A stretch of 64,000 bases of DNA, from positions 1,900,001 through 1,964,000 of the forward strand of contig OZ025868.1 in NCBI GenBank assembly GCA_964019415.1. Direction: 5' to 3'. Each line of letters begins with the position of its first letter. Within the stretch, counting starts at the first letter, position 1. This DNA comes from Ianthella basta (Eukaryota > Porifera > Demospongiae > Verongiida > Ianthellidae). Under the pieces are notes generated by a model. It had not been told where the DNA came from. It searched no databases and saw nothing but the letters and a program-made list of their open reading frames with translations. The translations under genes and the position numbers were made by a program. Positions 5,414 to 56,872 of this stretch are shown here, in pieces.

Positions 5414-6580
5414 TCACACAGATCTAGGCCTGTGATCATGACGAGACACAGCTGGAGGCAATGAATCTTGTGGCTGATCCATTTGAGGCTGCTGATCTGA
5501 TAATAGAGCATAATATTCCTTTTCTTCGCAATGTTTCTTCAGCTTCCATGAAATGACAATAAGCCCCACACTCAACGACGCTGGGAGGGTCCAGTATGAC
5601 ATCAGACTGTTCACCGAGATAAAAATTTGAGTTGCACATTGAGTATTACTAATACTGCAAGCATTTTTAAAGGAGACAATTAGGTCACAGATGGTTGCAA
5701 AGGCACTGATAGTAGCAATGATGCCTAAAATCAAAGTACCAATGTACTTGCAAAGGCGCTCACAAGTGAATGTGTTATTGCATCTGCAATTGTCTCTGTC
5801 GATCCCATTCTTGCAGTTCTTCAACATATATTCTACTATTCGGAAGCAGACTACTATAATTGCAACAGCAGTACTATAAATTGTCAATGCTGCAGCAAAA
5901 GCTATACCAATAATGTCTAGAGACAAAGCATAACAAGTGAATTCATCTTTGGCTCCTGTCTGATTGGCAAGATTGGTACAAGTTATGGGATAGTAACTTA
6001 TATTTGTATAACAAAAGAGAGGATGACTGCTATCGTCCTTCTCATGGCAGTCAGATCTAGTGGTGACAAGTGGAATACAACTGAAGAATCCCTGCACTGA
6101 TGCAAGAGCCACTGCAAGAGACATAAAGGAAAATATCTCCATAACTGTAGATTTGTAATTATCCTCTATTTTTCGATTCAAGAGGAGTGTAGATAGGTTA
6201 TCTGATGCTTGAGTCCTCTGTTTGCCTGTTGTAAAAAGACTTGAGAACATCCCCAGGGACAGAAATCTTCCTAATGAGAAGATCCAAAAGAGTATACGTG
6301 AGTTGAATTGCTTCCAAAGGCAATGTAGACTGCAGCCTGAATGCCAGTTGAAAGGCCGGTGACTGACATGGGTGCCAGAATTGCCACAACTGGTACGAAG
6401 TTTATGAATTGCCCAACGGAGTAGAGTTACAATGCCAGCTACTACAGTAGCACAAATGACAATCACAAGGCAAAGCAGAAGACCCGCAATAGGAAAATAC
6501 CGGATGTATTGCAAGCCCATGAAGAACAGTTTATGAGGGCCGCTACTGAGACTCAGTATACATTCAATCATGATTGGCAC
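5414..6580 (-). CDS. Five-helix membrane protein, divergent family member
   Basis: A single-exon frame of 388 codons with ATG at 6580. I do not recognise the family, but this copy aligns with the minus-strand array members between 13 and 57 kb. The predicted layout is helix 1 near residues 15-50, an LNRKIEDN motif near 133-140 (LDRKVEN in the others), helix 2 near 143-170, an extracellular loop with Cys and N-x-S/T sites, helix 3 near 215-250, helix 4 near 277-302 and helix 5 near 322-343. The signature HCEEKEY follows, then a polar Gln/Pro-rich tail. It is the outlier of the family and lies outside the main array, so it may be the older locus. Function is unknown: receptor, channel subunit or scaffold are all possible. 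The length and uninterrupted frame support a real gene. Confidence 0.75.
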   Translation of the reverse strand: MPIMIECILSLSSGPHKLFFMGLQYIRYFPIAGLLLCLVIVICATVVAGIVTLLRWAIHKLRTSCGNSGTHVSHRPFNWHSGCSLHCLWKQFNSRILFWIFSLGRFLSLGMFSSLFTTGKQRTQASDNLSTLLLNRKIEDNYKSTVMEIFSFMSLAVALASVQGFFSCIPLVTTRSDCHEKDDSSHPLFCYTNISYYPITCTNLANQTGAKDEFTCYALSLDIIGIAFAAALTIYSTAVAIIVVCFRIVEYMLKNCKNGIDRDNCRCNNTFTCERLCKYIGTLILGIIATISAFATICDLIVSFKNACSISNTQCATQIFISVNSLMSYWTLPASLSVGLIVISWKLKKHCEEKEYYALLSDQQPQMDQPQDSLPPAVSRHDHRPRSV

Positions 6581-6653
6581 TCAACGTATGATTGCTAGAC
6601 TGAACTTCAGCTGCTACAATACAGAACTGTTAGCTGCTTGAATGTTAAGCACC

Positions 6654-6935
6654 TTAGTCACCTTTCTTTTTCCGCACAAATGTAAAGGTCCAGATCTTGT
6701 GTGGTCCTCTATGAATAGACTTGACGCTTTCCAGGAAATACTTGTATTGAATATGTATCAGCAATGCATTGCCAATGAATAAACTTAAGAAGTGGATGTG
6801 CTGATCATGTCCACACAAACATACACAAGCATGGACATACTTACCTCCTCCTATTGTGCAAACTTCGTAGGGAATGATTACAGTATATTGGGCAAGATCT
6901 AGTGATCTGTGACGACAGTGGTGTGATGTTAGCAT
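6654..6935 (-). CDS. Hypothetical short reading frame, possibly terminal exon(s)
   Basis: An open frame of 93 codons ends in a basic tail (FVRKKKGD) and includes a hydrophobic stretch beginning FIGNALLIHIQYKYF. A good donor (gtaagt) near 6846-6841 could split it into two exons, but the phases do not fit a simple two-exon model. It is not recognised. It sits just upstream of the membrane gene at 5414-6580 on the same strand. Confidence 0.25.
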   Translation of the reverse strand: MLTSHHCRHRSLDLAQYTVIIPYEVCTIGGGKYVHACVCLCGHDQHIHFLSLFIGNALLIHIQYKYFLESVKSIHRGPHKIWTFTFVRKKKGD

Positions 6936-7090
6936 AAATTAACGCTTTTGCACACACATGCAGTCACAGCTAGCACACATAATGCACACTACACATTGTA
7001 CAATGTACCTAGGCTGATGCTGTAAAGGCCTGAGTGGCTAGGCAGATTCATGCTGATATTTCTAAAAGACACTAGCCAAAGGGGATCAGA

Positions 7091-7134
7091 TATCAGATGT
7101 TTCGGCAGCACTATGGCTGCCTTCATCAGTGATT
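7091..7134 (-). ncRNA. Hammerhead ribozyme motif (minimal, Penelope type)
   Basis: Read on the minus strand, stem I is AUCA (7133-7130) pairing with UGAU (7095-7092). The core CUGAUGA is at 7129-7123. Stem II pairs GGCAGC (7121-7116) with GCUGCC (7109-7104) around a 6-nt loop. GAAA is at 7103-7100 and CAUC at 7099-7096, placing the cleavage site after 7096. All core positions match the hammerhead consensus. Helix III is reduced to one or two pairs with no loop, as reported for Penelope-like elements, which suggests activity mainly as a dimer. Activity is inferred, not shown. Confidence 0.75.
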
Positions 7135-7189
7135 ATAATGACACTTACAAGCAGGTGTATAAATAGGGGGGTGGTCACGTGAGGCATTG

Positions 7190-7267
7190 GTGTTTACAGG
7201 AATAAGCATACATCATGCAATGTCTCTAGTGTTTACAGAAATAAGCATACATCATGCAATGTCTTTA
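7190..7267. repeat. Tandem duplication, 39-bp unit, two copies
   Basis: Units beginning GTGTTTACAG start at 7190 and 7229 and differ at a few positions. They lie within the Penelope-like relic. Confidence 0.85.
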
Positions 7268-7424
7268 ACCGGAACAGGGGTTAAAATAATAAGTGAAAAT
7301 GAAATAATACTAATAACAGATGGGCGGTTACATAAATCAATCTAGAAGGGTTGACAGGTCAGGTTGACCTGTCGAAGGCATCGGTGATTGACTACCATCC
7401 GCACACCCAGACCCAGACACCCCT

Positions 7425-8511: not shown

Positions 8512-8517
<6 letters not shown>

Positions 8518-8579
<62 letters not shown>
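8518..8579. repeat. (CA)n microsatellite
   Basis: A pure CA tract of about 31 units. Confidence 0.95.
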
Positions 8580-8581
<2 letters not shown>

Positions 8582-12060: not shown

Positions 12061-13048
12061 GTGTGTGTGTGTTGTGTGTGTGTGTGTGTGTGTGGGTGTG
12101 TGTGTGTGTGTGTGTGTGGGTGTGTGTGTGTATGCTGTTGTGTGAGTGTGTGTATTTGGTCACTAGTCAGCCAGCAGTTGAATCGTGACTCAATCTCCAT
12201 CACATTGTTATAGGATTATTGACTAAGGATGCTTTATGTGAGCAGTGGGGAAAGAAGCCAGTCTATGTTGTGGGTGGAGCTACAGCAAATGCTGTTCGAT
12301 CACTAGGGTTATCCCCTCAGGGGGAGGAGACTGGACAAGCAGACAAGCTGGCTGACCTCATTATCCAATCAGGTACACATCTTGCAGAAACTTAGGGTTA
12401 AGGTTACACAGATTGCTCAAATGTGCATACTGTGGAGTAGATGAAATTCCCTTAAACTCGCTCTTACAATAGCACAGCAAGTGCAGTGACTTTATACACA
12501 CATTATATACACGCAGCATGCACATGCATATCCAAACACACATCAACGCACTCACATGCAAGCATGCACACATTATATGATCCAATACGTAAGTAGCTAA
12601 ACAATATTTGCGTGTTTGTATGCTGATGCTTGTCACGAGTCAGCATGTCCTCTACCCCAAATAGTCCCCACCCCTCCTGACCTCCCTTTGTTGTTCCCGT
12701 GTGGAAGCATTAGAAAAGATACCCTCCCTGTGAAACTAAAGTCACAGGGATTTTCCCTCAGTGAGGTTGTTTGTTATGAAACATGTGCAGCAGCGGACAT
12801 TGGACAGAGACTCACTTCCATCGCGAAAGAGAAAGTGAGAATGGGAATGTATTTGGTAGATCTGGTTAACTGTATTCATTAGCTAAGCATTCACTCATTG
12901 TGTTGTATGCAATTTAATGCACTCTGAATATTCAATATCTCACTGCAGGGTTGTCCCGAGTGGACTGTGTTGTTCTCACCATCTGGAGTGAAGTATGTAA
13001 GTGAGGCACTTCCTGACTTTCTACAAGACACTAAGGTGTGTGTGTGCA

Positions 13049-13387: not shown

Positions 13388-14596
13388 CTAGATACATGTT
13401 GCACCATATTTGTTTCCACCGTCTGGGTCAAGGGCCTGGATTTCAGGGCATTCTTTACCTGCATCTGCCTCACTTTTGTCTGCTCTGACTCCATTGCAGT
13501 GCTCCTCATCACGGTCGTTTGCAGAAGAAGGCTGCATATGTTCGCAACAGTTGATGTACTCCTCTCTCTTGCAGTGTTCCCTGAGATTGGACATGACAAT
13601 GAATAAAGAGGGAATCAACACCAGAGGTAGGATGCCATATGCGAAATGAACTCGGTCTGATAGTTCACTTGCAGCTGTGTTTGAGTGGTTCTCTTTGATA
13701 ATCATAACCACAACGCAAGATGCAACGTCAATGATGCCCAGTAGTAGAAGAGTGAGTGAAAGATATGGAATATTACAGTGCTTTGCACATTTACCCAAGC
13801 ATGTCGTCTCCTTGCTCTTCACAATAATAGCTTTGTTCATCTTAATGTACAAGCTAATCCCCACTGCGGCCAATTTAGCTAATCCAATTGCAGCCGCGAC
13901 GGCAAGGCCCAGATCGAATAGTGATATGGCATAGCACACAAAATCCATGTCGTCCAACTCAGTGTCATTGTAGGCATCGCAGTCTGTGGGCCTGGTACTC
14001 CCGTTTGTGTAGCAGAAGAGATCTCGAAGCTGGTCGTCCTGTTAGAGGCACTGCCCGCTGATGTTAACCGGAATGTAGCGGAAAAATACCAGCAGGGCTG
14101 TAGCAAATATGGTGAGTGCCATTAAATAAAAAGCAAAAACTAGTTTGCGATTGTCCTCGACTTTTCTGTCCAAGAAGACCATGAACTTTCTTGTACCAGA
14201 TCCGTTCACACGTCGCATCTTGAGTTCTTTAAAGAGCCCTGGGAATGTAATCACATTGAGTTTTCTGGCCAGCAGAAGGAGTAAACTGCGGCAATCGTCA
14301 GTAAAACATTTGTAACAACAATTTCCTTTGAAACTCTTCCAACATCCTTTCACTCTGCCGCTGAGACATGAGTCATCGAAGCCCGCAATGTTATCTTCAA
14401 GTAACTGATGACGTCGTTTACGTAAATACGGCTGACAAATACACCAAGCCACAAAGACGCAAAGATAGTAGAAAAGTGCGAGTAATCCAATGACAATGAG
14501 TAGTAAATACGCCACTTACTCTCCAAAGTAGTCCATTAACCTGAACAGATACAGCGGGGCGGGCCACCCTGTCACCGGCAACGTTGGTACGGTCAT
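13388..14596 (-). pseudogene. Membrane protein family copy with two in-frame stops
   Basis: Starting at the conserved MTVPTLP (ATG 14596), the frame runs to TGA-flanked sequence at 13388 but is broken by TAA at 14518-14516 and TAA at 14044-14042. The paralogue at 51-52.6 kb has GAA at both positions. Between and after the stops the family features persist: FMVFLDRKVEDN, the outer loop ending near ELDDMDFVCYA, helix 3, GKCAKHCN, helix 4, helix 5 and HCKREEY, then an acidic tail. A conserved region upstream (14597-14816) is shared with the 52-kb copy but is in another frame, and I treat it as 5' flank. Its 3' end faces UROS, 149 bp away. The rest of the frame is well kept, which suggests recent loss. 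Confidence 0.75.
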
Positions 14597-14829: not shown

Positions 14830-15600
14830 TTTCCCTCAGTCGGCTAAGTAAGTACGGGCTGACAGTTAAAGAAGGAGCTGGGCGTTCACTGCGTAGCTAA
14901 AGCCCGTGGGTGCCGTCGCTGCGCTTGCTAGAAGCGTCGTGCGTAGAAGAGCGCGCGTCTTTCGCGCGTGTACGCGATGGGGCAGCTAACTAAATATAAA
15001 ATAGCGCACTGTGCGTGGAGAACCCAGGGCTGGCAGACCTTTCTCTGGACACGCCCCCAGGTGATAGCCCTGTATATAGGCAATTGCTACATTAGCAAAC
15101 TATACTGTAATAATAGTGTCTCCAATAAGCATCCACCCTGCAACTTGCATTAAAATAAGCAACAGAGAGTGTACGTAGCTAGCTATGGGAGCCGCATTGC
15201 TCGCCACTCTATAGCCAAAGGAATCAACCCTTGTATTAATTGGAAGAAGGTACGTAGATAGATAGCTACATGAGTGTATACTATGTGCATGTGGCTACTG
15301 TATTAAATATGAATTAATGGCATATTGTTAATAGTAGCTACGTATAATAATATCTGGTTAATTACTTGTGATTACTTAAGTTTAACTAGGTATTCAATAT
15401 GCCATGTATTGCTCACTCAATAATTACAGCAAGCTGTCCTCAGTGGGCTGTGCATGTGTTTCATCGGTCAGGAGTGAAGTGCAGTATTAATACTGCACTA
15501 GCTATTACTACTACTACGAATATACTAGTACTAATGTGTGTGCATGCATGTGTCTGTGTGTGCATGCGTCCATGTGTGTATGCATATCCACCTCCCACTC
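14830..15600. other. Spacer between two family copies
   Basis: No gene seen. The sequence is closely repeated at 55750-56510, showing that 13.4-17.5 kb and 51.4-57.3 kb are duplicates. Confidence 0.5.
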
Positions 15601-15954: not shown

Positions 15955-17223
15955 TTAGGTTTGAATTGCATCATATGCACATGGAGTGTTATCACATGTT
16001 TGAAGAAGTGGTACTTCCGTTGTATCATTAGTAGCCACATCACTGTCGCTATGACTCCCTCCCCATGCATCTTCAGTATTTGAGATGTCAACAGTTCCAG
16101 CACTCATGTCTACACTGACTCTTAATACACTTGATTTGGCGGAAGGTTCTTCATCACGGCAATCCACTCTAGAAGGTTCCTGATCTTTACTTAAAGTAAT
16201 GTACTCCTCTCGGTCGCAGTGTTTGCCAAGATTGCACACAACAATGATTAGAGCGGGGATTAACACCGGGGGTAGGATGCCGTATGCAACGTATACACGA
16301 AATGATAGCTTTCCCTCAGCCGTGGCCAAGCGACTCTGCCTGATAACTGCAACCACAAGGCAAGATACAATGGCAATGATGACCAATAGTCCAACAGTGA
16401 GCCCAAGACAGGGATAGTAAGCATATTTTGCACATTTGCCTAAAGGTGTACTTTCTTTGCTCTGCTCGTAAATAACCTTGATCAATACAATGTAGATTGA
16501 AATGCACCTTACAGCGACTTTAGCTAGTCCAAGAGAAGCTGCAGCTGCTAAGCCAAACTGTAGTATAGATATAGCATAGCACTCAAATTGTAGTTCTTCC
16601 AGCTCAGTGCTGGTGTAAGTAGCACAGTCCACAGGCAAACTAGCTGCAGTACTTCCATTTGTGTAGCAGAAGAGGATTCGACCCTTGGCATCTGTTTCGT
16701 AGCATTCCCCCGAGATTGCAACTGGGATGTAACGGAAAAATACCAACAGTGCTGCACTAAGTATGGTCAGTGCCAGCAAGTAGAAAGCAAATATGATGTG
16801 GAAACTGTCCTCCACCTTTCTGTCCAAGAACAACATAAACCTTCTTGTACCAAGACTATTCACACGTCTTACTTTCAGTTCTTTGAAAAGGGTCGGAAAT
16901 GTACTCACATTAAGTTTCCTGGCCAGCAAAAGAAGCAGATCTTTACAGCAATCAATGAAGCACTTACAGGTGCAACAGCCGCAGAATTTACACTGTTCAC
17001 AGCAATTTCTAATATACCATTTACGGTATTCTCTGTCCAATTGTTGGCAAAATTTAGGTTTACGAATGCACCAAACCACTAAGGCACAAAAGTAGTAAGA
17101 AAGCGCAATGAAGGCAAGAATAGCAAGTAAGAGATAAACCATCCATTCACCAGTGTTATTCATAATAACAAACAGAGCTTTAGGTGCTTTCCAGTGTGTT
17201 AGTGGTAGTGTTGGCACAGTCAT
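15955..17223 (-). CDS. Five-helix membrane protein, array copy with intact frame
   Basis: The frame is open from at least 17277. I place the start at 17223 (MTVPTLP), which is conserved in other copies, giving 422 residues. Features are helix 1 (about 28-52), a cytosolic Cys cluster (74-93, many CC and CxC), LPxLFKELK-like FPTLFKELK (109-117), FLDRKVED (132-139), helix 2 (143-164), an outer loop with conserved cysteines and PVDC (about 170-213), helix 3 (215-246), helix 4 (270-294), helix 5 (310-330), HCDREEY (335-341) and a long Ser/Asp-rich tail. There are no introns. It is the longest member. I do not recognise the family; a lineage-specific receptor or regulatory membrane protein is possible. 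The intact frame beside broken neighbours supports function. Confidence 0.8.
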   Translation of the reverse strand: MTVPTLPLTHWKAPKALFVIMNNTGEWMVYLLLAILAFIALSYYFCALVVWCIRKPKFCQQLDREYRKWYIRNCCEQCKFCGCCTCKCFIDCCKDLLLLLARKLNVSTFPTLFKELKVRRVNSLGTRRFMLFLDRKVEDSFHIIFAFYLLALTILSAALLVFFRYIPVAISGECYETDAKGRILFCYTNGSTAASLPVDCATYTSTELEELQFECYAISILQFGLAAAASLGLAKVAVRCISIYIVLIKVIYEQSKESTPLGKCAKYAYYPCLGLTVGLLVIIAIVSCLVVAVIRQSRLATAEGKLSFRVYVAYGILPPVLIPALIIVVCNLGKHCDREEYITLSKDQEPSRVDCRDEEPSAKSSVLRVSVDMSAGTVDISNTEDAWGGSHSDSDVATNDTTEVPLLQTCDNTPCAYDAIQT

Positions 17224-19760: not shown

Positions 19761-20078
19761 ATACATCAAATCATGAAATACAAGAGCAACACAATGTGTT
19801 AATGGGTTCACTACAATGATGTGTGTATAGTTCAGTAATAGTCTTTAACTAAGAGAATACAGTACATAAGAATAATAGTACCAAATGTATACAGTTTTAG
19901 TGATAGAATACAACAGTACATGATGTACATTACAAGAGTAACATGATGTTATGAGGTGGGCACTACAGTGATGTGTCTGTATGCAAGTACAGTACCAAAT
20001 GTATGCAGTTCCAATGTCAGCATATGACCATACATGAAACACTAGAGTAGCATGTTGTGGTATGAGGTGGGCACTATG

Positions 20079-20252
<174 letters not shown>

Positions 20253-20327
20253 ATGCGTGCAATCCAGTTACTACTGTCCTCTTGTGCTCAAAGTGTATAC
20301 CACAACTTGTGTTCTTAGGCACACGAT

Positions 20328-21464
20328 TTAATTGCTGGTTAGAAGAGGCTGTGTTTTCTCCATCACCATTGCCGCTACATCATGCTCATTATGATGCTCT
20401 CCCAGTGCTTGCTCACTTTCATCCTGTTGTTCTTCAGCCAGTGATGACTCAGACCCGACATCAATATCCCAGTCACGTGGGTCAGGAGGCCTCTGTTCTG
20501 ATGCAAAACTTACATATTCTCCTTGCTCGCAATGACCCACAAGGAATGCCATAATTATGCTCAGTTGTACTGACAGTAGTAAAGGTAATATAATATACGC
20601 TATTTGATAACTTTCAAGAGATACGTCCAGCTGCCCCACCTTATTCAGTATGACTATGGTCAAAGAGACAGCCGCAATGACGTGTGCCACTAAAGTGATC
20701 ACGACCAAGGTCGAGACAATGTAGACATTGTTAGCACATTTTCTGCTGTAACGACAGCAGCACCATCGTGGTATGCAACGAGACAGACACATTTTCAGCT
20801 TCTGTGGAGGATTCTTGGTCATCTTGAAAAAGCCATCAGTTACCTTAACATAAACCGTGACACTCACAATGACCACTTTAGTAAGTGCCATTGCAGCTGC
20901 AAGTGCTATGCCAATATCGGTCACTGTTATGGCATAACACCGAAAATGTAATGCCCGTCATTCAGTATGATTGAAGTCCAAACAGTCTATGGGAAGGCTT
21001 GGTGTCATGCTTGAAGCACTGTAGCAGTAGAGTGATCGTCCGTGATGGTCTCTTTCAAGGCATTCCTCACTTGCTTCCACAGGAAAGTAGTGAAAGAAGC
21101 TTATTGCAGATAGGCTGATAGTTGTAAATGCCAAAGACCAAAATGAAAAGATGATCCCTGCATTGTTCTCCACTTTTCTGTCCAGGAACACCAAGAACTC
21201 CCTCGTTGATTGCTTACCAGGATCATTGCGTGTTTTGAGTACCTTGAACAGAGCTGGGAAAACGCTCGGGAAAAGCTTCCTTCCCGCAAATGAGAGCGCA
21301 CTCCCCATCCATTTGCATGAACTCTTCTTCAGGGCCACAAAAGGTAAGACAAAGGGGAACAGGACGGTGTATAGGAGGGGCACCATATAGCATAACAGCA
21401 TGAGTACTACTTTCAGTATCACCAGACTTTCAAAGAATATAGGGGGAGGAATCCAATCAGCCAT
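20328..21464 (-). pseudogene. Membrane protein family copy, single nonsense change
   Basis: The frame from MADWIPP (ATG 21464) to the shared C-terminus EKTQPLLTSN is 379 codons in one frame, broken only by TGA at 20960-20958 after the outer-loop sequon NHTE. The paralogue at 32 kb reads CGA there, so this is a CpG transition. The family features are otherwise complete: FLVFLDRKVENN, PIDC, helix 3, the Cys-rich MCLSRC/CCCR region, helices 4 and 5 and HCEQGEY. It was probably lost recently; stop readthrough or a polymorphic allele cannot be excluded. Confidence 0.8.
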
Positions 21465-27006: not shown

Positions 27007-28167
27007 TTAATTGCTGGTTAGAAGAGGTAGTGTTTTCTCCATTGCCATTGCCGCTACATCACGCTCATTACGATGCTCTCCCAATGCTTGCTCACTTTCA
27101 TCCTGTTGTTCTTCAGCCAGTGATGACTCAGACCCCACATCAATATGCCAGTCAGGTGGGTCTAGAGGCCTCTGTTCTGATGTTAAACTGACATATTCTC
27201 CTTGTTCACAATGGCCTTCAGACAGCACCACAATAAAGACCAGGGGTATCCACACTAGAAAAGGCAAGGTCGCATAAGACAAATAATATGCTTTATTTGT
27301 TACCCCAACTGCCAAATTGAGCATGTTTATGGAAAAGTAGACTGCTATAATAGCTACTGCCACTAAACCAAGCACAGCCAGGCTTGAGACAATGTAGACT
27401 TTGTTAGCACATTTTCTGTTGCAATGACAGCAGCACCATCGTGGTATGCAACAAGAAAAACACATTTTCAGCTTCTGCGGAGGATCCTTGGTCATCTTGA
27501 AAAAGCCTTCAGTTGCTCTAATATAGACAGTGATGCCCACTACGGCCATTTTAGCAATTGCAAGTGCGGCAGCAAGTCCTATACCAAAGCCAGGCACAGC
27601 TATGGCATAGCACCGAAAATGTAATTCTCGTATCTCAGTAAAATTGTATTGCAAACAGTCCACGGGAGGGCTTGAGATTCTTGAGTCGATGCTCGAGGTA
27701 GTGTAGCAGAAGAGAGTTCGTCCATAGTGGTCTTCCTCAAGACATTCCCTGCTCACAGCCACAGGAAAGTATTGAAAGAACCCCATTGCAGACAGGCTGA
27801 TAGTAGCATATGCCAAAGAGCAAAATGAGAAGACGATCCCTGCATTGTTCTCCACTTTTCTGTCCAGGAACACCAAGAACTCCCTTGTTGATTGTGTGCC
27901 AGAATCACTGTGTGTTTTGTGCACCTTGAACAGAGCTGGGAAAACACTCAAGCAAAGCTTCCTTCCCACAAACAGGAGCACACTCCTTATCCTTTTGCAC
28001 AGACGAGGCGGCCTCCGGGCACAGGGAAATGCACATGGGAATATCATCAAACAATACCCCAAGGGCACGTACAAACATACTCCCATAATCGCTAAGCTCA
28101 GCATCTCCAGATTATAAAAGAACACAATGGAAGGTGCCCCCATCATCCATAAAGTTGGTACTGCCAT
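27007..28167 (-). CDS. Five-helix membrane protein, array copy with intact frame
   Basis: A single exon of 386 codons from MAVPTLW (ATG 28167) to PLLTSN. Predicted features are helix 1 (about 20-46), FPALFK (76-81), TREFLVFLDRKVENN (94-108), helix 2 (109-137), an outer loop with C142, C154 and C171 plus the sequon NFT (175-177), helix 3 (187-216), a Cys-rich segment (236-253, including CCCHC), helix 4 (257-280), helix 5 (297-316), HCEQGEY (319-325) and an acidic tail with DESEQAL. If the outer loop is extracellular, the Cys-rich segment and tail are cytosolic. It is a close paralogue of 48090-49241. The family is not recognised and no function is proposed. Confidence 0.8.
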   Translation of the reverse strand: MAVPTLWMMGAPSIVFFYNLEMLSLAIMGVCLYVPLGYCLMIFPCAFPCARRPPRLCKRIRSVLLFVGRKLCLSVFPALFKVHKTHSDSGTQSTREFLVFLDRKVENNAGIVFSFCSLAYATISLSAMGFFQYFPVAVSRECLEEDHYGRTLFCYTTSSIDSRISSPPVDCLQYNFTEIRELHFRCYAIAVPGFGIGLAAALAIAKMAVVGITVYIRATEGFFKMTKDPPQKLKMCFSCCIPRWCCCHCNRKCANKVYIVSSLAVLGLVAVAIIAVYFSINMLNLAVGVTNKAYYLSYATLPFLVWIPLVFIVVLSEGHCEQGEYVSLTSEQRPLDPPDWHIDVGSESSLAEEQQDESEQALGEHRNERDVAAMAMEKTLPLLTSN

Positions 28168-32037: not shown

Positions 32038-33174
32038 TTAATTGCTGGTTAGAAGAGGCTGTGTTTTCTCCATTGCCATTGCCGCTACATCACGCTCATT
32101 ATGATGCTCTCCCAATGCTTGCTCACTTTCATCCTGTTCTTCTTCAGCCAGTGATGACTCAGACCCGACATCAATATCCCAGTCACGTGGGTCTGGAGGC
32201 CTCTGTTCTGATGCAAAGCTGACATATTCTCCTTGCTCGCAATGGCCCACAAGAAATGCCATAATTAAGCTCAGTTGTATTGACAGTAGAAAAGGTAATA
32301 CAATATACGCTGCATGATAACTTGCAAGAGATACGTCCAGCTTCCCCACCAAATTTGGTATGACTTTGGTCAAAAAGACAGCCATAATGACGTGTGCCAC
32401 TAAAGTGATCACAACCAGGGTTGAGACAAGGTAAACTATGATAGCACGTTTTCTGCTGTAACGACAGCAACACCATCGTGGCATACAACGAGACAGACAC
32501 ATTTTCAGCTTCTGTGGGGGATTCTTGGTCATCTTGAAAAAGCCATCAGTTACCTTAACATAAACCGTGACACTCACAATGACCACTTTAGTAAGTGCCA
32601 TTGCAGCTGCAAGTGCTATGCCAATATTGGTCACTGTTATGGCATAACACCGAAAATGTATTGCCCGTCGTTCAGTATGATTGAAGTCCAAACAGTCTAT
32701 GGGAAGGCTTGGTGTCAAGCTTGAAGCACTGTAGCAGTAGAGTGATCGTCCGTGATGGTCTCTTTCAAGGGATTCCTCACTTGCTTCCACAGGAAAGTAG
32801 TGAAAGAAGCTTATTGCAGATAGGCTGATAGTTGTAAATACCAAAGACCAAAATTAAAAGATGATCCCTGCATTGTTCTCCACTTTTCTGTCCAGGAACA
32901 CCAAGAACTCCCTCGTTGATTGCTTACCAGGATCATTGCGTGTTTTGAGTACCTTGAACAGAGCTGGGAAAACGCTCGGGAAAAGCTTCCTTCCCGCAAA
33001 TGAGAGCGCACTCCCCATCCATTTGCATGAACTCTTCTTCAGGGCCACAAAAGGTAAGACAAAGGAGAACAGGACGGTGTATAGGGAGGGCACCATATAG
33101 CATAACAGCATGAGTACTACTTTCAGTATCACCAGACTTTCAAAGAACATAGGGGAAGGAATCCAATCAGCCAT
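32038..33174 (-). pseudogene. Membrane protein family copy, single nonsense change
   Basis: Same length and frame as the 20-kb copy (379 codons from MADWIPS, ATG 33174), but broken at a different place: TAA at 32856-32854 inside helix 2, where the partner has TCA (Ser). The partner's stop codon is CGA here. Downstream features (helices 3-5, HCEQGEY, acidic tail) are intact. The two copies therefore lost their frames independently after duplication. Confidence 0.8.
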
Positions 33175-40471: not shown

Positions 40472-40592
40472 TTTATGTACTGGTATGTAATGTTCAGACT
40501 GATGTATGTTGCCTTAAGACAGCTTGTTTTTTAGGGATGACCTCCAGAAACTGGAGATATGTATCCTTCATGATCATTGATTGATTGATTGA
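37984..40592 (+). mobile_element. APE-type LINE inserted in a membrane gene copy, 12-bp target duplication
   Basis: TTAGAAGAGGCT occurs at 37972-37983 and 40593-40604, exactly flanking the insert. The same motif is the 3' end of the membrane coding sequence in other copies, so the LINE landed in that gene's last codons. The element is 5'-truncated within its endonuclease domain and ends in a 3' UTR with an ATTG-type tail. Confidence 0.92.
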
Positions 40593-41708
40593 TTAGAAGA
40601 GGCTGCGTTTTCTCTGTTGCCATTACTACTACATCACCCTCGTTATGATGCTCTCCCAATGCTTGCTCACTTTCATCCTGCTGTTCCTCACCCAGTGATG
40701 ACTCAGACCCCACACCAATATCCCAGTCACGAGGGTCTGGAGGCCTCTGTTCTGATGCAAAACTGACATATTCTCCTTGCTCGCAATGATCTATCATCAG
40801 TAACACAATAACACCCAGGGGTATCCATGACATTAAAGGGAAGATTATATAGGACACATAATAAAATGGAAATTGTACTTCTAGCTGACCTGCCCGAATT
40901 ATTGCAAACACAGTAAAATAGAAAGCAAGAAAAACAACTACCACTGAACCAATCAATTCCCATCCCAACAATTGTGGTATACGAGAAAAACATATCTTCA
41001 GCTTCTTATTATTATTCTTATTATTCTTATGTGGGGGTATTTGGTCATCTTGAAAATCTTGGTCATCTTGAAAATGCCTTGAGTTATCTTAATATACACA
41101 GTGATGCCCAGTATGGCCACTTTAGCAATTGCCAGTGCAGCTGTAAGTGCTATACCAAAACCAGGCACAGCTATGGCATAGCACCGAAAGCGTATTTCCT
41201 GTAATTCAGTAAAATTGTATTGTGAACAGTCCATGGGAAGGCTTGGATTGCTGTTTGAGTTGCTGTAGCAGAAGAGAGTTCGCTTGTGGTGGTCTTTCTT
41301 AACACATACCTCACTCGATTCCACAGGAAAGTAGTGAAAGAACCCAATTGCAGACAGGCTGATAATAGTACATGCCAAAGAGCAAAATGAAACGATGATC
41401 CCTAAACTGTTCTCCACTTTTCTGTCCAGGAAAACCATGAACTCCCTTATTGATTGCTTGCCAGGATCACTGCGTGTTTTGTGCACCTTAAACAGAGCTG
41501 GGAATACACTCGGGCAAAGCTTCCTTCCCAAAAACCAGAGCACACTCTCCATCCATTTGCACAGACGAGGCGGCCTCAGGGCACAGCAAAGTACATAGCC
41601 GAATATCAAGATGTATACTGTGGGAACTAGATAGCAAAATAGCATAATTACCGATTTCAGTATCTCCAGACGTTCAAAGAGCACAACAGGAGGCTTCCAA
41701 TCAGCCAT
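40531..41708 (-). pseudogene. Membrane protein family copy, frameshifted, LINE-altered C-terminus
   Basis: From MADWKPP (ATG 41708) the family features run through FMVFLDRKVEN, PMDC, the sequon NFTE and helix 3. At about 41000-41080 a local duplication of TTCAAGATGACCAA and an AT-rich expansion replace the Cys-rich segment and shift the frame into a stop near 40998. Helices 4 and 5, HCEQGEY and the acidic tail follow in another frame. The last three codons are replaced by LINE sequence, so that frame ends at 40531 inside the LINE 3' UTR. Confidence 0.8.
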
Positions 41709-42788: not shown

Positions 42789-42861
42789 TTACAGTGGGGA
42801 CTGAAGTGAGTGACTGGCTTATATACAAAACAGATGATAGTAGGTGACAGGTGTTGAAGTG

Positions 42862-44611: not shown

Positions 44612-45015
44612 AGTGATGTAAACAATGGAATTGCGGTGCATGTGGCCAACACCAGCCACAGTATTGATTGGCAGAATGCACGAGTGGTGAAGACAGTACC
44701 AGGATACTGGGAGAGGAGAACTACAGAGGCCATACTGATTAGGAAGAGCCAGGAGCCCATGAACCTGGACAATGGACTCCTACTCCCCAGTGTTTGGAAC
44801 CCTATATTACTAAACACACCTCCATGATGTCACTAATAGATTTGTTCAGTTTCCCCTTCCTGTTTATTCAATTAATTATTTGGAGTGCCTCATGTTTATT
44901 CAATCAATCTTTCAGTGACTCATGTTTATTTAATTACTTTGCCACTTCAACACCTGTCACCTACTATCATCTGTTTTGTATATAAGCCAGTCACTCACTT
45001 CAGTCCTCACTGTAA

Positions 45016-45411: not shown

Positions 45412-45515
45412 TTAATTGCTGGTTAGAAGAGGCTGTGTTTTCTCCATTGCCATTGACACTACTTCACGCTCATTATGATGCCCTCCCAATGCTGGCTCAC
45501 TTTCATCCTGGACTA
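45412..45515 (-). pseudogene. Membrane family C-terminal fragment
   Basis: Only the last roughly 34 codons remain (QDESEPALGGHHNE to EKTQPLLTSN). They are joined directly to a Ty3 pol fragment. Confidence 0.75.
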
Positions 45516-47453: not shown

Positions 47454-47454
47454 A

Positions 47455-48089: not shown

Positions 48090-49241
48090 TTAATTGCTGG
48101 TTAGAAGAGGTAGTGTTTTCTCCACTACCACTGCCACTAGATCACGCTCATTTTGGTGCTCTCTCAATGCTTGCTCACTTTCATCCTGTTGTTCTTCTGC
48201 CATTGATGACCCAGACTCCACATCAATGCTCCAGTCATGTGGGTCTGGAGGCCTCTGTTCTGCTGCTAAACTGGTGAATTCTCCTTGTTCACAATGGCCT
48301 TCAGACAGTGCCACAATAAAGACCAGGGGTAGCCACACTAGTATAGGCAAGGCTGCATAAGACCCATAATAGCTTTTTACCCCCAACTGCCTAGACAAAT
48401 TGAGTACAGGTAAGGAAAGGTAGACAGCTATAATAGCTACTGCCAATAAACCAATCACAGCCAGGCTTGAGACAATGTAGACTTTGTTAGCACATTTTCT
48501 GTTGCAATGACAGCAGCACCATCGTGGTATGCAACGAGAAAAACACATTTTCAGCTTCTGTGGGGGATTCTTGGTCATCTTGAAGAAGCCTGCAGTTGCT
48601 TTAACATAGACAGTGATGCCCACTACGGCCACTTTAGCAATTGCAAGTGCGGCAGCAATTCCTATACCAAAGCCAGACACAGCTATGGCATAGCACCGAA
48701 AACGTAATTCTCGTATTTCTGTAAAATTGTATTGCAAACAGTCCACGGGAAGGCTTGAGTTGATGCTCGAGGTAGTGTAGCAGAAGACAGTTCGTCCATG
48801 TTGGTCCTCCTCAAGACATTCTCTGCTCACAGCCACAGGAAAGTATTGAAAAAACCCAATTGCAGACAGGCTGAAAATAGTATATGCCAAAGAGCAAAAT
48901 GAAAAGATGATCCCTGCATTGTTCTCTACATTTCTGTCCAGGAACACCAAGAACTCCCTTGTTGATTGCCTGCCAGGATCACTGCGTGTTTTGTGCACCT
49001 TAAACAGAGCTGGGAATACACTCGGGCAAAGCTTCCTTCCCACAAACAAGAGCACACTTCTTATCCTTTTGCACAGATGAGGCGACCTCAGGGCACAGGG
49101 AAATGCACATGGGAATATCATCAAACAATACCCCAAGGGCATGTAGAAACATATCGTCATAATTGCTGAGCTCAGTATCTGCAGACCATAAAAGAACACA
49201 AAGGGAGGTACCCCAATCATTCATAAAGTTGGTACTGCCAT
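48090..49241 (-). CDS. Five-helix membrane protein, array copy with early stop and adjacent restart ATG
   Basis: The conserved start MAVPTL is at 49241, but codon 7 is TGA (TGG in the 27-kb paralogue). The next codon is ATG (49220), which opens 376 codons to PLLTSN. The 376-residue frame has all family features: FLVFLDRNVENN (R-N rather than R-K), helix 2, an outer loop with PVDC and NFTE, helix 3, MCFSRC/CCCHC, helices 4 and 5, HCEQGEF (F replaces Y) and an acidic tail. Translation from the second ATG would lose only seven residues ahead of helix 1, so it may still be functional. Confidence 0.7.
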
Positions 49242-50506: not shown

Positions 50507-52669
50507 AGGCTCTCTTGCAGTGTTCACCGAGATTGCATATGACAATGCAGGGCTGGGGGAAGGTTGGCTCATTTGCTCAGGCCATTCAGAATGCCAAGGC
50601 ATTGCTTAAGCAATACTAGCTAGCTAATCACCCCTGAATCTTGATGGTGTAGCTACACAACAGACAGAATTTTAGCAAGCCAGGATAGAAAAAAGGGGAA
50701 GGGGAGCCAGTACATAGCTCAAATTTGTGGCCCTAGGAAAATTATGGGTTTTAGGTCCTCCAAGATTGATTCTGGTGCACTCTGTGAGGTCCAAAAGCAC
50801 ATTTCTGTCACACATTAACTGCGCTTTAATGTCACATTTTAACTGGAAGTGGCAAACATTGGGGGATATGGGGGGGGGGGGGGGGGGGGAGCTTAAATGC
50901 TTGTAGGGGAGCTTAAATGCTTGTAGGGAAGCTTTCCTCCCCCATTTTTATGCCCTTCAGGGCTACAATTTTTCGCAAATTGTAAAGAATTTAAGCTTAG
51001 AAAATCCTAGGTGCTAAACAAACATCCAAAACGTTCTAAGATAATGGAGAACGACCCAGAAAGTGTCCTCCTAGTATATAGGGCACCCTTCCTTTCAATC
51101 TTTTCGAGTTATCCTTGGTTTTACGCTTCTTCTGTCGTGGCGGCAGCCATATTGTTCTCTAATCACGTCATAGTTCATCAACAAAATGGCGACGTCGATC
51201 TCGCAACTTAGTTGTGCCCGCAACTCGCTTGAATACTAGCCAATTGCCAAAGTGGTTACTCACTGTAATTGGAGGTAGTTAAAGTCTTCATTTCAGTATC
51301 TCTTTGATAACTAATAATAAGTTTCTGATGGCTAACATTAATTTCAGCTCTAGCTGACAATTTCCTAGCTGCTGGCTCCCAAAACTTTGGTGCGGCCATG
51401 GCCGGAGTGGCCGGAGCGGTTCCCCCGGCCCTGCAATGAATAAAGAGGGAATCAACACCAGAGGTAGGATGCCGTATGCGAAATGAACTTGATCTGATAG
51501 TTCACTTGCAGCTGTGTTTGAGTGGTTCTCTTTGATAATCACGACCACAACGCAAGATGCAACGCCAATGATGCCCAGTAACAGAAGACTTAGAGTGAGT
51601 GAAAGATATGGAATATAACAGTGCTTTGCACATTTACCCAAGCACGTTGTCTCCTTGCTCTTTGCAATAATAGCATTGGTCATCTTTTAATGTACAAGCT
51701 AATGCCCATTTCGGCCAGTTTAGCTAATCCGAGTGCAGCCGCGACGGCAAGGCCCAGATCGAGTAGTGATATAGTATAGCACACAAAATTTATGTCGTCC
51801 AACTCATTGTCATTGTAGGCATCGCAGTCTGTGGGCCAGGTACTCTCGCTTGTGTAGCAGAAGAGATCTCGAAGCAGGTCGTCCTGTTCAAGGCATTGCC
51901 CGTTGATGTTAACCGGAATGTAGCGGGAAAATGCCAGCAAGGCTGTAGCAAATATGGACAATGCCATTAAATAGAAGGCAAAAATTAGCTTGCAATTGTC
52001 CTCGACGTTTCTGTCCAAGAGGACCATGAACTTTCTTGTACCAGGTCGGTTCTCATGTCGCACCTTGAGTTCTTTAAAGAGCCCTGGAAATGTAATCACA
52101 TTGAGTTTTCTGGCCAGCAGAAGGAGTAAACTGTGGCACTTGTCAGTAAAACGTTTGCAACAATTTCCTTTGAAACTCTCCCAACATCCTTTCACTCTGC
52201 GGCTGAGACATGAATCATCGAAGCCCGCAATGTTGTCTTCAAGTAACTGGTTACGTCGTTGACATAAATACGGCCGACGAATACGAAAACACCAAGCCAC
52301 AAAGACGCAAAGATAGTAGAAAAGTGCGACTAATCCAATGACAATGAGTAGTGAATACGCCACTTCTTCTCCAAAGTAGTCCATTAACCTGAATAGATAC
52401 AGCGGGGCGGCCCACCCTGTCACCGGCAACGTTGGCACGGTAATTTCGGGCCTGTTTTCTAAAAGGTCGCAGACACAATTGGAGGAAATCCGAGACAGCT
52501 GAGGACAATGCACCACTCTTCCACGTGAACCTGCACCGGTACCGTTCAACCAGTTGACGTGGACAACTTGAACACAACCCACAATAAAATTACAGATGCC
52601 CGTACCATGCAAGGCCTCGGTGCAGATGAGGTTTCTGTACGAACATGAGATGCTTAACACTATTCCCAT
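50507..52669 (-). pseudogene. Membrane family copy, multiply broken, split by a DNA transposon
   Basis: It pairs with the copy at 13388-14596. The conserved start reads ITVPTLP (ATT instead of ATG). The frame then runs through helix 1, FMVLLDRNVEDN, helix 2, a loop with PTDC, and helix 3 until a 2-bp insertion in an A run near 51684. Helix 4 resumes in another frame (GKCAKHCY). At 51433 an 886-bp element interrupts helix 5. A short continuation (50507-50547) lies beyond it, and the rest is lost at the junction with the neighbouring spacer. Confidence 0.8.
50548..51433. mobile_element. 886-bp TIR element with 5-bp target duplication
   Basis: The ends are CAGGGCTGGGGGAA and the complement of TTCCCCCGGCCCTG. 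CAATG flanks both sides (50543-50547 and 51434-51438), and the uninterrupted paralogue at 13.59 kb has a single CAATG. Inside are a run of about 19 G near 50871-50889, a 20-bp duplication (AGCTTAAATGCTTGTAGGG) and no transposase. CAGGG ends recall hAT-like elements, but a 5-bp duplication is not the usual 8. Confidence 0.75.
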
Positions 52670-52787: not shown

Positions 52788-55747
52788 ATAATTATACGTA
52801 CGTAACTTTCGTGTGTCTTTCTATTACCCTTTGGAAAAGTGTCTAAGGCCTTTGTACAAGAAGTAGCTGACCTAATGCAAGCTTTTGCGCAGAAGACCAG
52901 CTTGAAATGCATTGCTCTGAAAGCGTGCTTCCTAATGCAAACCCTGCTTTTGCAAAAGCCCGGTGCAAAGAGTAAGGCCAAAGACCATGTTAACCATCTA
53001 AAAAGACGGTTTGAAAGCTGGAAAGAGGGAGACATTGAAGCCCTACTTGCAGAAGGAAGATGCATTCAAGCCCACCTCCCAAGGAGAACTCCCTCACCAG
53101 AAGATGAATCTGTCTCCCGCACGTTCAGTAAGATGATGTTTGCTGGGAATGTACATGGAGCTCTCAATTACCTGTCGCGGAAATCCACTGGCTCCCCTTT
53201 GAAAATCGATGATGTCATAACTATCAGCAATGGAAGTTCTGTCACCGTTGAAGAGGCTCTTTTGTCCCTCCATCCTGAAGCCAAGTCAGTTGATAGTGCT
53301 GCCTTATTGGAGAATACTTTAGAAAATGCACTTCCAGTTGACCCAGTCATGTTTACATCCATCAATGGTCTCATGATTAAGGACATTGCTTTGCATTCAA
53401 CTGGAACAGCTGGACCGTCGGGCATTGACGCAGCTGCTTGGCGCAAGATGTGCTCGTCGTTCAAAGAGGCTTCCTCTAATCTGTGTGATGCCATTGCAGG
53501 AGTTGCCAGGAGGATGTGTACTGCTCGTGTTGCTCCCGAGGCTTTGAGTGCCCTACTAGCCTGTCGACTAGTTCCACTCAACAAAAACCCAGGGGTTCGC
53601 CCAATTGGGGTTGGGGAAGTTGTGAGACGCATCATCGGCAAAGCTGTTATGAAAGTACTGAAGAAGGATGTCATGCTTGCAGCTGGTCCTCTGCAGACAT
53701 GCTCTGGCATTCCTAGTGGGGGTGAAGCAGCAGTTCATGCAGTGAGAGAGACTTGGGAGAGACCTGACATGGAAGGTGTTCTCTTAGTAGATGCCTCAAA
53801 TGCCTTTAACTCCCTGAATAGGAAGGTCGCTCTCCTGAATATGAAGCATGTCTGCCCTGCTCTGGAAGTGGCACTAACTAACTGCTATCAAAACCCATCA
53901 CGCTTGTTTGTGTCCGGAGGAGGAGAGATTCTCTCAAGAGAGGGAACCACTCAAGGGGACCCTTTAGGCATGGCCATGTTCTCACTTGCTATGGTCCCTC
54001 TCATAATCAAGCTAATGGAGCAATCTGAATCTACCGTTCAAGCTTGGTTTGCAGATGATGCAACAGGTGTGGGGTCGCTCCAGAACCTCAAACAATGGTG
54101 GGATGGCCTGTCTACCATTGGTCCACTCTTCGGATACTATCCGAATGCAGCCAAGACTTGCCTGGTAGTGCGGGATGAGCAAGAAGAGGTGGCTAGGCAA
54201 ATCTTTGACAACACAGATGTCGTCATTACCACAGAAGGAAAGAAGCATCTGGGGGCTGCAATAGGGTCACCAACCTTTGTTGAAGACTTCTTTTCACTCA
54301 AGGTGAAAGAATGGACAGATGAAGTGGAGAAGCTAGCTGCCGTGGCTGGAAGTCAACCTCAGGCTGCCTATGCAGCCTTTGTACATGGCACCAAACACAA
54401 GTGGAACTACTTATGCAGAACCACTCCCAATTGCAGCCATCTGCTGCAGCCACTGGAAGATGCCATCCACCGGAAGCTGATTCCTGCCATTTCCGGTAGA
54501 CCGTCATGCTCGCAGGTTGAGAGAGGTCTACTAGCGCTCCCAGCAAAGCTTGGCGGACTGAGCTTATCAAATCCAACTACTGCAGCCCAATCAGAGTTTG
54601 AGGCTTCAAAGAAGATAACAGCATCCTTGGTGCAGTCGATTATCCAACAAAGAACATCCTTTGAGAATGATCCCACTCAGGCGAACCCCAGTGTGAATGT
54701 TGTGAAGAAAAGAAAAGTGGAAGAACAGAAACGAAACCATGAGGAGATTCGCAACGAGCTTGAACCCTCAAGCCAGAGGCTGATCGACTGCGCATCAGAA
54801 CCTGGAGCTTCAGCATGGCTCACGGCGCTACCTCTGGAGGAGCATGGCTTCTGCCTCTCTAAGGGATCCTTCAGAGATTCACTATGCCTGAGATATGGAT
54901 GGCCTATCGTCGATGTCAGCTCGAGGTGTGCCTGTGGCACAGCTTTCTCGGTGGAGCATGCTATGACATGTCATAAAGGTGGTATACCCACCTTAAGGCA
55001 CAACGAGATCCGTGACCTGACAGCTGAGTTATTGAAAGAGCAAGCATCAAATGTCTCAACCGAGCCAAGACTACAGCCACTACATGATGAGAGATTCCAG
55101 TTCAGGTCAGCAAATAGAGAGGATGAAGCAAGACTTGATGTGAGAGCAAGTGACTTCTGGTGTAAGGGACAGGAGGCCTTTTTTGACATTAGGGTTTTCT
55201 ACCCAATTGCCCCCTCTTATCGCCAGAAGGATCTTACTGCTCTGTACCGCATGCATGAGCAAGAGAAGAAGAGACAATATGCTGAAAGGGTGAGAGAAGT
55301 CGAACACGGAGTCTTCACACCTTTGGTCTTTGCTTCCACTGGAGGTATGGCAAGGGAGTGTACCATCTTTTTCAAAAGAATTGCCGATACTCTCTCTGAC
55401 AAGAAACAGATCCCTTTTTCACAGATCATGTACCTGATTAGGTGCCGCATCTCATTTGCCCTCTTACGTTCTGCAGTCAGGGCAATCAGAGGATCGAGAT
55501 CATCCAGACGGCCAGATGACTGTGGCATTGATTTTGACCGTGCCATCACGGAAGGCCAACTGTGATATAGCCAATGTGTGTGTGACTGCAGTAACATAAT
55601 TATGTATTTAGGCAATGCAACTTGTTGTAAATTTAGTATTATATGACCTTTTGTTTCCTTTTTCCTTTTTTTTTCTCATTGTACATTTCCCTTCCAAGGC
55701 AGTGCGCATGTGTGCCTTATGTAATAATATTAATTGGTGTCATTTGT
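52788..55747 (+). mobile_element. LINE-like retroelement with restriction-like endonuclease signature
   Basis: Comparison of 14930-14945 with 52780-55760 shows about 2.96 kb of extra sequence carrying one large ORF and a 3' UTR with a T-rich stretch near 55660. No clear target duplication is visible. The ORF opens without ATG, suggesting 5' truncation. Confidence 0.7.
52806..55565 (+). CDS. Reverse transcriptase with CCHC and restriction-like endonuclease motifs
   Basis: About 919 codons are open from 52806 (stop at 55563-55565), with no frameshift or stop. The first ATG is near 52875. In order there are GPSGIDAAAWRKM near 53410, ACRLVPLNKNPGVRPIGVGE near 53560, the RT palm LLVDASNAFNSLNR near 53790, TTQGDPLGMAMFSLAM near 53950 and catalytic FADDA near 54050. 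A CxC-x-H-x4-C cluster (CACGTAFSVEHAMTC) lies near 54930, then RLDVRASDF and FFDIRVFYP near 55130-55200. That C-terminal order resembles the CCHC plus restriction-like endonuclease of R2-type lineages. The family is not named. The intact frame suggests a recent insertion. Confidence 0.75.
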   Translation, partial: LSCVFLLPFGKVSKAFVQEVADLMQAFAQKTSLKCIALKACFLMQTLLLQKPGAKSKAKDHVNHLKRRFESWKEGDIEALLAEGRCIQAHLPRRTPSPEDESVSRTFSKMMFAGNVHGALNYLSRKSTGSPLKIDDVITISNGSSVTVEEALLSLHPEAKSVDSAALLENTLENALPVDPVMFTSINGLMIKDIALHSTGTAGPSGIDAAAWRKMCSSFKEASSNLCDAIAGVARRMCTARVAPEALSALLACRLVPLNKNPGVRPIGVGEVVRRIIGKAVMKVLKKDVMLAAGPLQTCSGIPSGGEAAVHAVRETWERPDMEGVLLVDASNAFNSLNRKVALLNMKHVCPALEVALTNCYQNPSRLFVSGGGEILSREGTTQGDPLGMAMFSLAMVPLIIKLMEQSESTVQAWFADDATGVGSLQNLKQWWDGLSTIGPLFGYYPNAAKTCLVVRDEQEEVARQIFDNTDVVITTEGKKHLGAAIGSPTFVEDFFSLKVKEWTDEVEKLAAVAGSQPQAAYAAFVHGTKHKWNYLCRTTPNCSHLLQPLEDAIHRKLIPAISGRPSCSQVERGLLALPAKLGGLSLSNPTTAAQSEFEASKKITASLVQSIIQQRTSFENDPTQANPSVNVVKKRKVEEQKRNHEEIRNELEPSSQRLIDCASEPGASAWLTALPLEEHGFCLSKGSFRDSLCLRYGWPIVDVSSRCACGTAFSVEHAMTCHKGGIPTLRHNEIRDLTAELLKEQASNVSTEPRLQPLHDERFQFRSANREDEARLDVRASDFWCKGQEAFFDIRVFYPIAPSYRQKDLTALYRMHEQEKKRQYAERVREVEHGVFTPLVFASTGGMARECTIFFKRIADTLSDKKQIPFSQIMYLIRCRISFALLRSAVRAIRGSRSSRRPDDCGIDFDRAITEGQL

Positions 55748-56281
55748 GTGTAGAAGAGCGCGCGTCTTTCGCGTGTACGCGATGGGGCAGCTATACTAAA
55801 ATAGCGCACTTTGCGTGGGGGAACCCATTTGCTGGCAGACCTTTCCCTGGACACGCCCCCAGGTGATAGCCCTGTATATATACAATTGCTACATTACCTA
55901 ACTATACTGTAATAATAGTGTCTCCAATAAGCATCCACCCTGCAACTTGCATTAAAATAAGCAACAGAGAGTGTAGCTAGCTATGGGAGCCGCATTGCTC
56001 GCCACTTTAGCTATAGCCAAAGGAATCAACCCTTGTATTAATTGGAAGAAGGTACGTAGATAGCTAGCTACATGAGTGTAGCTATGTGCATGTGGCTACT
56101 GTATTAAATGTGAATGGCATATTGTTAATAGTAGCTATAATAATATCTGGTTAATTACTTTTGATTACTTAAGTAATATGCCATGTATTGCTCACTCAAT
56201 AATTACAGCAAGCTGTCCTCAGTGGGCCGTGTGTTTCATCGGTCAGGAGTGAATAATACTGCACTAGCTACTACTACTACT

Positions 56282-56406
56282 AAAGTGAGGGCTTCTCAGC
56301 TGGCTCAGGCATCAGAAAGGGTTGGTTCTCTAATACCAGCTTCACAACAGGGTTGAAAACCTCGCCGACGTTTCGACCAGATGCTCTAGAGAACCAACCC
56401 TTTCTG
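56282..56406. mobile_element. Palindromic insertion with perfect 20-bp inverted repeats
   Basis: CAGAAAGGGTTGGTTCTCTA (56313-56332) has its exact complement at 56387-56406. The paralogous site at 15.51 kb lacks the insert, which is flanked by ACTACTACTA. The minus strand contains GGTCGAAACGTCGG, which resembles part of a hammerhead core, without the CUGANGA strand. Confidence 0.7.
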
Positions 56407-56515
56407 ACTACTACTACTATGAATATACTAGTACTAATGTGTGTGCATGCATGTGTGTGTGTGTGCATACGTCCCTGTGTGTATGCATATCCATCTCCCA
56501 CTCTGTCTCCTATTA

Positions 56516-56556
56516 TGCAGATTGTCCTACTAAATCTGAAGCATTGCAGACATCTG
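56516..56556 (+). pseudogene. UROS: UROS last-exon relic, truncated
   Basis: ATGCAGATTGTCCTACTAAA and GAAGCATTGCAGACATCTG match 15612-15650, then join the middle of the membrane gene. Confidence 0.6.
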
Positions 56557-56872
56557 CAAGAAGAAGCAGATCTTTACAACAATCAATGGAGCACTTATAA
56601 GCTTACAGATGCAACAGCCACAGAATATACACTGTCCATAGCCATTTCCAGTATACCTCTTACAGTATATTTCTCTGCCCAATGCTTTGCAAAATTTAAG
56701 TTTACGAATGCACCAAAACACTAAGGCACAAAAAGAGTAACAAAGCGCAACTAAGGCAAGAAAAGCAAGTAAGAGATAAACCATCCATTCACCAGTGTTA
56801 TCCATTATAATAAACAGATATTTGAGTGCTTTCGAATTTCCAGTGTGTTAGTGGCAGTGTTGGCACGGTCAT
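56556..56872 (-). pseudogene. Membrane family N-terminal remnant
   Basis: MTVPTLPLTHWK at 56872 is followed by a 5-bp insertion and frameshift, then helix 1 (EWMVYLLLAFLALVALCYSF) and the start of the Cys cluster. The sequence stops at the deletion junction. Closest relative is 15955-17223. Confidence 0.75.

Follow-up and report, generated by a model that had tools for sequence, protein, structure and literature searches.

A tandem birth-and-death family of predicted five-helix membrane proteins in the sponge Ianthella basta

The window analyzed here is a 64-kb stretch of the Ianthella basta genome (bases 1900001-1964000 of contig OZ025868.1, the 16.6 Mb contig C1 of a 209 Mb, 96-contig assembly), and it contains eleven minus-strand loci, intact and broken, of one family of predicted five-helix membrane proteins (Table 1). 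A tblastn search of the window with copies A to D (E<=1e-3) recovered all eleven loci that a preliminary description of this DNA had assigned to a single family. Copies C and D match C, D, F, and G with E-values of ~1e-138 to 0, while copy A, the most divergent of the open copies, matches the other large copies at ~1e-9 to 1e-21; these values indicate kinship beyond chance.

As described earlier, three loci (A, B, and C) are open, one has an early stop followed by a restart, and seven are broken. Copy D, the restart case, has an ATG at codon 8 (49218-49220), immediately after its stop, and from there 376 codons are open (48090-49220). Copies E, F, G, H, and I and two fragments are interrupted by stops, frame changes, or truncation. 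Recoding of the stops was considered and ruled out, since the codons differ in kind and site (two TAA in E, TGA in F, and TAA in G) and H and I additionally contain frame changes. Copy A, despite its divergence, retains the four outer-loop cysteines and an HC-EEKEY motif. The C-terminal frame of copy H extends to 40531, into repeat-like sequence, and the C-terminus of copy I is unlike that of the rest of the family.

Table 1. Loci of the five-helix family within the window.
Locus	Position	Strand	State	Details
Copy A	5414..6580	-	open	most divergent; ATG at 6571; without the MxVPTL start motif
Copy E	13388..14596	-	broken	in-frame TAA at 14042-14044 and 14516-14518
Copy B	15955..17223	-	intact	422 aa
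Copy F	20328..21464	-	broken	TGA at 20958-20960
Copy C	27007..28167	-	intact	386 aa; reference for residue numbering
Copy G	32038..33174	-	broken	TAA at 32854-32856; Ser replaces outer-loop Cys 142
Copy H	40585..41708	-	broken	frame change and short internal duplication after helix 3
C-tail fragment	45412..45510	-		
Copy D	48090..49241	-	restart	ancestral ATG at 49239-49241; TGA at codon 7 (49221-49223)
Copy I	51288..52444	-	broken	start ATG replaced by ATT; frame changes near 51683
N-terminal fragment	56558..56872	-		related to copy B

The eleven loci are confirmed as an array, yet they are part of a much larger family on C1. Querying the whole assembly with copy C returned 52 matches, and querying it with the distant copy L028 returned 55, every one of them on this contig. 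Merging both sets and the window loci by coordinate yields about 50 family places, comprising 21 intact copies, the restart copy D, 27 broken or partial copies, and one copy at an assembly gap (L030). These counts are lower bounds; relatives close to copy A may be missed by the two queries used, and the figure of 27 depends on merging, several of these places being short scraps beside other copies. We counted a copy as intact when a single unbroken frame begins at the start motif (or first Met) and takes in the HC motif, and the 21 that qualify have full frames of 323-434 codons. Most places (36/50, including 16 intact copies) lie at 1.88-2.18 Mb; the rest are found at 2.4-3.5, 10.3, and 12.4 Mb.

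The L030 locus has an open frame of 6195 aa with the appearance of a giant fusion, which is an artefact: 1428 of its 3855 bases are N. Past the N run, 1771 aligned bases are 100% identical to L063. Because of this identity and the N run, L030 is excluded as an independent copy. L030/L037 (G000:C1:2077570-2078460) and L063 (2128434-2129489) are ~51 kb apart, and the pair may be an assembly duplicate.

In a tree of 22 copies, three copies from 3.4 Mb, a group around C, a group around B, and a group around L013 are each well supported. Position and tree agree only loosely: the copies at 1.88-2.18 Mb need three changes; L025, L063, and L064 are nearer to the 3.4 Mb copies, while L012, at 12.4 Mb, falls on the C side. 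Duplicated blocks are evident in the window, where the upstream flanks of C and D are 91.5% identical over 555 bases and where E/I and F/G are further duplicate pairs. The strong turnover proposed earlier is upheld by the broken or partial state of 27/50 places, by these blocks, and by the clade structure. The combination of tandem duplicates, intact and broken copies, and clades makes a birth-and-death multigene family well supported.

Hydropathy of 18 aligned copies (17 open copies from the genome search, including B and C, together with A) has five hydrophobic peaks, in agreement with the five helices predicted previously, and the single-exon coding region is likewise supported. Twenty-three columns are invariant across these 18 copies. 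In a set of 22 (the same 18 with L061, L063, L064, and D), the invariant residues, in the numbering of C, include F17, F80, L101, R103, F115, P135, Y187, A199, A200, H319, C320, and P334, among others. The short, conserved N-terminus is predicted to be external and begins M-x-V-P-T-L in most copies. Cytosolic segment 1, which is basic and often Cys-rich, ends with a predicted, conserved beta hairpin (FPxLFKxHK..TRxFxxFLDRKVE), whose last residues are the LDRKVE motif reported to precede helix 2 (LNRKIE in copy A). Helix 3 is rich in small residues. A basic cytosolic loop leads from it to helix 4, a short outer loop of variable sequence links helix 4 to helix 5, and the C-tail, which is acidic, starts with H-C-x3-E-Y-x-[ST]-[LFY] or a near form. 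The HC-x3-EY motif recognized earlier after helix 5 requires slight amendment: HC is invariant (22/22), but the Tyr is present in 20/22 copies and replaced by Phe in two. In six copies (L021, L023, L025, L028, L063, and L064), a pyrimidine-rich stretch and an AG are visible by eye just upstream of the ATG, and this 3' splice-like sequence suggests the end of an intron in the 5' untranslated region.

Outer loop 1 carries the PVDC-like motif (P-V-D-C) in many copies, as first described, but has four invariant cysteines rather than three. These residues (C142, C154, C171, and C186) are conserved in 22/22 open copies, with spacings of 11, 16, and 14 residues in C, and probably form two disulfides. 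In total, outer loop 1 has 4-5 cysteines, while outer loop 2 has a mean of 0.1 (range 0-2). The Cys-rich cytosolic segment also holds in many copies, but Cys content varies across the 22 copies, with 0-10 in cytosolic loop 1 (mean 4.0) and 1-8 in cytosolic loop 2 (mean 3.5). An N-glycosylation sequon (N-x-S/T) occurs in outer loop 1 of 22/22 copies; elsewhere sequons are found in inner loop 1 (8/22), inner loop 2 (4/22), and the tail (7/22). For K+R against D+E, the two inner loops average 13.4/5.4 and 6.1/2.0, and outer loop 1 averages 2.8/8.0. Based on the basic inner loops, the acidic outer loop 1, and the sequons, the topology is likely N-out, C-in. A surface recognition receptor would be expected to have an outer loop with a glycosylation site and paired cysteines, and the universal sequon and four invariant cysteines predict such a loop here.

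The family had been called unrecognized, and no family-wide match was found in Pfam or in PDB sequences. Four members searched against Pfam at E<=1 had no match (0/4). Two single-member Pfam matches, L6_membrane (E 0.0053, 1/12 members) and Orf78 (E 0.0078, 1/18), were judged to be due to chance; the other matches in searches with 4, 12, or 18 members (E<=1 or 5) were weaker, and each involved a single member. Alignment A1 gave a single row in PDB sequences, at E 2.4, and the search there was otherwise empty. No relative turned up in prokaryotic genomes, viral contigs, plasmids, or phages when these were scanned with short conserved patterns confirmed by tblastn, nor when the same non-animal collections were searched by tblastn with copy C only. 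We found no such family named in the literature surveyed, although it may still be described elsewhere.

Structural models were also built for copies C and B, which are 33% identical in sequence. Both are of low confidence (C: predicted local distance difference test 53.5, predicted template modeling score 0.41; B: 51.8 and 0.42). Each contains five long helices, an additional helix and a beta hairpin (preceding helix 2) on the cytosolic side, and short strands within outer loop 1; the structure prediction proposed as a check agrees with five helices, at this low confidence. A structure search with the model of C had pannexin-1 as its best rows, within the noise of the tool, and these rows were not recovered with the model of B. 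The Innexin profile (PF00876) matches none of 18 members at E<=1, though it finds two other genes in the same genome. Those genes (L067, G000:C10:4951318-4951626:-, and L068, 4966959-4967231:-) are innexin-like neighbors with frames of 456 and 434 aa, which score 29.0 and 29.7 bits against the profile (cut-off 25) over only ~100 residues. Pannexins are reported in PMC6391747 not to be found in Porifera, which bears only on these two innexin-like genes. A profile comparison of the family with them was also negative, a weak test resting on two sequences. Taking together the absence of sequence matches, the unrepeated, noise-level pannexin rows, and the negative innexin comparison, we provisionally regard this as an orphan family relative to Pfam, PDB sequences, and the viral, plasmid, phage, and prokaryotic collections.

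The unusually fast protein change proposed for the family is supported, and the change is unevenly distributed. Within clades, the mean difference peaks in helix 1 (0.47) and in outer loop 2 (0.41) and is lowest in the HC-EY segment (0.09), the N-terminus (0.10), and the cytosolic hairpin (0.12); the outer ends of helices 4 and 5 that adjoin outer loop 2 also stand out as variable. The ratio of nonsynonymous to synonymous change (dN/dS), pooled within each of four clades, is 0.63, 1.16, 0.71, and 0.63. Among close copies, the C/D pair has a ratio of 0.81 and pairs of the B clade range over 0.79-1.49, so that one half of the outcome named in advance as refuting the interpretation, no expression together with values near 1, is present. 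When B is compared with E and I, to which it is distantly related, the ratios fall to 0.23 and 0.26, indicating long-term constraint. In the pairwise segment estimates, the row labeled 'ECL1' for clade g1 takes in helix 2.

Codon likelihoods were computed on a coarse grid of omega (dN/dS) with two kappa values, following our reading of the GY parameter order in IQ-TREE and under a model without gene conversion between copies. On this grid, the best omega for helix 1 is 1.5 in all but one of the four clades (0.7 in that one), and that for helix 4, the loop, and helix 5 is 1 to 1.5 in all four. The core is best fit by 0.5 in clade g1 and 0.35 in clade g4, with twice the log-likelihood difference (2dlnL) being 11.7 and 13.9. 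In a neutral simulation started from C, stop-free runs made up 13%, 1.9%, and 0.45% at 0.05, 0.10, and 0.15 changes/site. Since frames break this quickly under neutral change, we read the intact copies as having been kept by selection over the longer term.

We favor, with a probability of about 0.45, the reading that these loci form a tandem birth-and-death family of cell-surface membrane proteins that recognize signals from outside the cell. Such a role is suggested by analogy, on the basis of turnover, topology, and pattern of variation. The helix 2-outer loop-helix 3 core would serve as a scaffold common to the family, helix 1, which changes fast, could together with the outward-facing ends of helices 4 and 5 be the part that meets variable ligands, and the Y-x-x-Phi-like motif beside the membrane may control trafficking or signaling. 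The vertebrate OR/V1R, insect OR/GR, and nematode chemoreceptor families are alike in having tandem arrays with many broken copies, clade-specific expansions, and fast change in part of the protein (in part after PMC11526382). The molecules themselves differ: chemoreceptors have seven helices, while the sponge family, which lacks a Pfam match, is predicted to have five and carries an outer loop with four Cys. The predicted count of five is likewise not that of a GPCR (G protein-coupled receptor) or of an insect-type gustatory or odorant receptor, which have seven. A bolder version, that the family is a lineage-private class of receptors or receptor-channels unrelated to GPCRs, ionotropic, or insect-type receptors, in which a constant core and a variable sensor in a new fold serve a diversified chemical or non-self sense, we consider unlikely.

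Several observations weigh against a recognition role. The broken pairs F/G and E/I have dN/dS of 0.65 and 0.49 and are therefore not less constrained than the intact pair C/D. Taken whole, helices 4 and 5 (0.26 and 0.28) are no more variable than helix 2 (0.27) or the tail (0.26). The core of clades g2 and g3 also has an omega of ~1, so only half of the four clades display a contrast between core and sensor; in g2 the 'core' (134 codons) includes part of cytosolic loop 1. No omega above 1 can be taken as secure: the strongest instance, the combined variable segments of g4, has 2dlnL of 4.2 against omega 1, in one of 20 segment-clade tests and without correction. The Y-x-x-Phi-like motif is non-canonical in 8/22 copies (Phe for Tyr in two; Tyr in five and Ser in one at the last place). 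Finally, drift together with birth-and-death is expected of multigene families generally, according to PMC11526382.

Other readings share some of this evidence. The proteins could act in gamete recognition or allorecognition, with mating or self/non-self matching, rather than environmental chemicals, driving the change; turnover and variation would fit equally. The fuhc and fester allorecognition genes of Botryllus are likewise fast-evolving or polymorphic recognition genes, although their domain make-up differs. No feature pointing specifically to reproduction or self recognition was found, and we regard this reading as rather unlikely. The relic reading, in which the loci are mostly non-functional remains that segmental duplication has scattered through a region rich in repeats, would account for the 27/50 broken or partial places, the dN/dS near 1 in the B clade, broken pairs as constrained as C/D, and the retro-element frames between copies, but not readily for the persistence of 21 full frames, the 23 invariant columns in 18 copies, the rapid frame loss of the neutral simulation, or the constrained core of g1 and g4; it appears improbable. 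It is also conceivable that these are endosomal or lysosomal membrane proteins sorted via the tyrosine motif beside helix 5, based on the invariant HC (22/22) followed by [YF]-x-[STNA]-[LFYS] near the membrane, which resembles a sorting signal. Against this, the last position is Tyr in 5/22 copies and Ser in 1/22, and the Tyr itself is Phe in 2/22. Endosomal and lysosomal families are also not known for such turnover, and we give this reading a low probability.

Two further alternatives rest on resemblance to named membrane proteins. If helix 1 is an extra N-terminal helix and helices 2-5 are the four helices of a channel, the family could comprise pannexin/innexin/LRRC8-like channel subunits, a likeness that draws on the order of helices 2-5, the cysteines of the outer loop, and weak structural matches to just one of the two low-confidence models. 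However, innexins have four helices and Cys pairs in both outer loops, while the sponge proteins have five hydrophobic peaks, a prediction only, and their conserved cysteines are all in outer loop 1; this reading is quite unlikely. An adhesion or scaffold protein of the claudin/TARP, tetraspanin, or Tweety (TTYH) type has some features in common with the family. Like TTYH, the sponge proteins are predicted to have five helices with N-out, C-in topology, and like claudins and TARPs they have an outer loop 1 with cysteines and predicted strands and a short outer loop 2. Yet none of 18 members matches the Tweety profile (PF04906) at E<=1, nor do they match other such families in Pfam; a Tweety structural row was obtained with one poor model only, and rows of these types are absent among the 50 listed for the model of B. 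The four helices and W-GLW-C-C motif of claudins and TARPs were not found, there is no invariant Trp in outer loop 1, and the C-C-G typical of the large outer loop of tetraspanins is absent from outer loop 1 of the 18 aligned copies. An adhesion or scaffold role seems a slim prospect.

Should the intact copies prove to be expressed on the cell surface, they would represent an undescribed, expanded receptor family in a sponge and would bear on how chemical or non-self sensing diversified; the 21 intact genes on one contig, with a defined core and defined variable segments, are ready targets. If the genes are silent, they would illustrate cleanly how a large family dies out amid abundant repeats.

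Several other elements were identified in the window. A retro-element of ~2.95 kb (52792-55745) has a 919-aa frame that matches RVT_1 with 29.1 bits, just below the cut-off of 29.6. Its ends are given by an empty site, as a related stretch is uninterrupted at 14933-14939. Three more retro-element frames occur between family copies (24534-26183, 38327-40471, and 42844-44616), one of which is endonuclease-like (25.2 bits, below cut-off) and two of which match RVT_1 (142 and 38.7 bits). Two short frames are probably exons: one at 12189-12392 that matches uroporphyrinogen-III synthase HemD (28.6 bits) and one at 59655-60083 that matches fibronectin type III (26.9 bits). At 63432-63697 lies a 266-base imperfect palindrome that shares 81% identity with its reverse complement. 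Long CA/TG dinucleotide tracts are present at many places, such as 20074-20379, and account for long false frames in the list of open reading frames.

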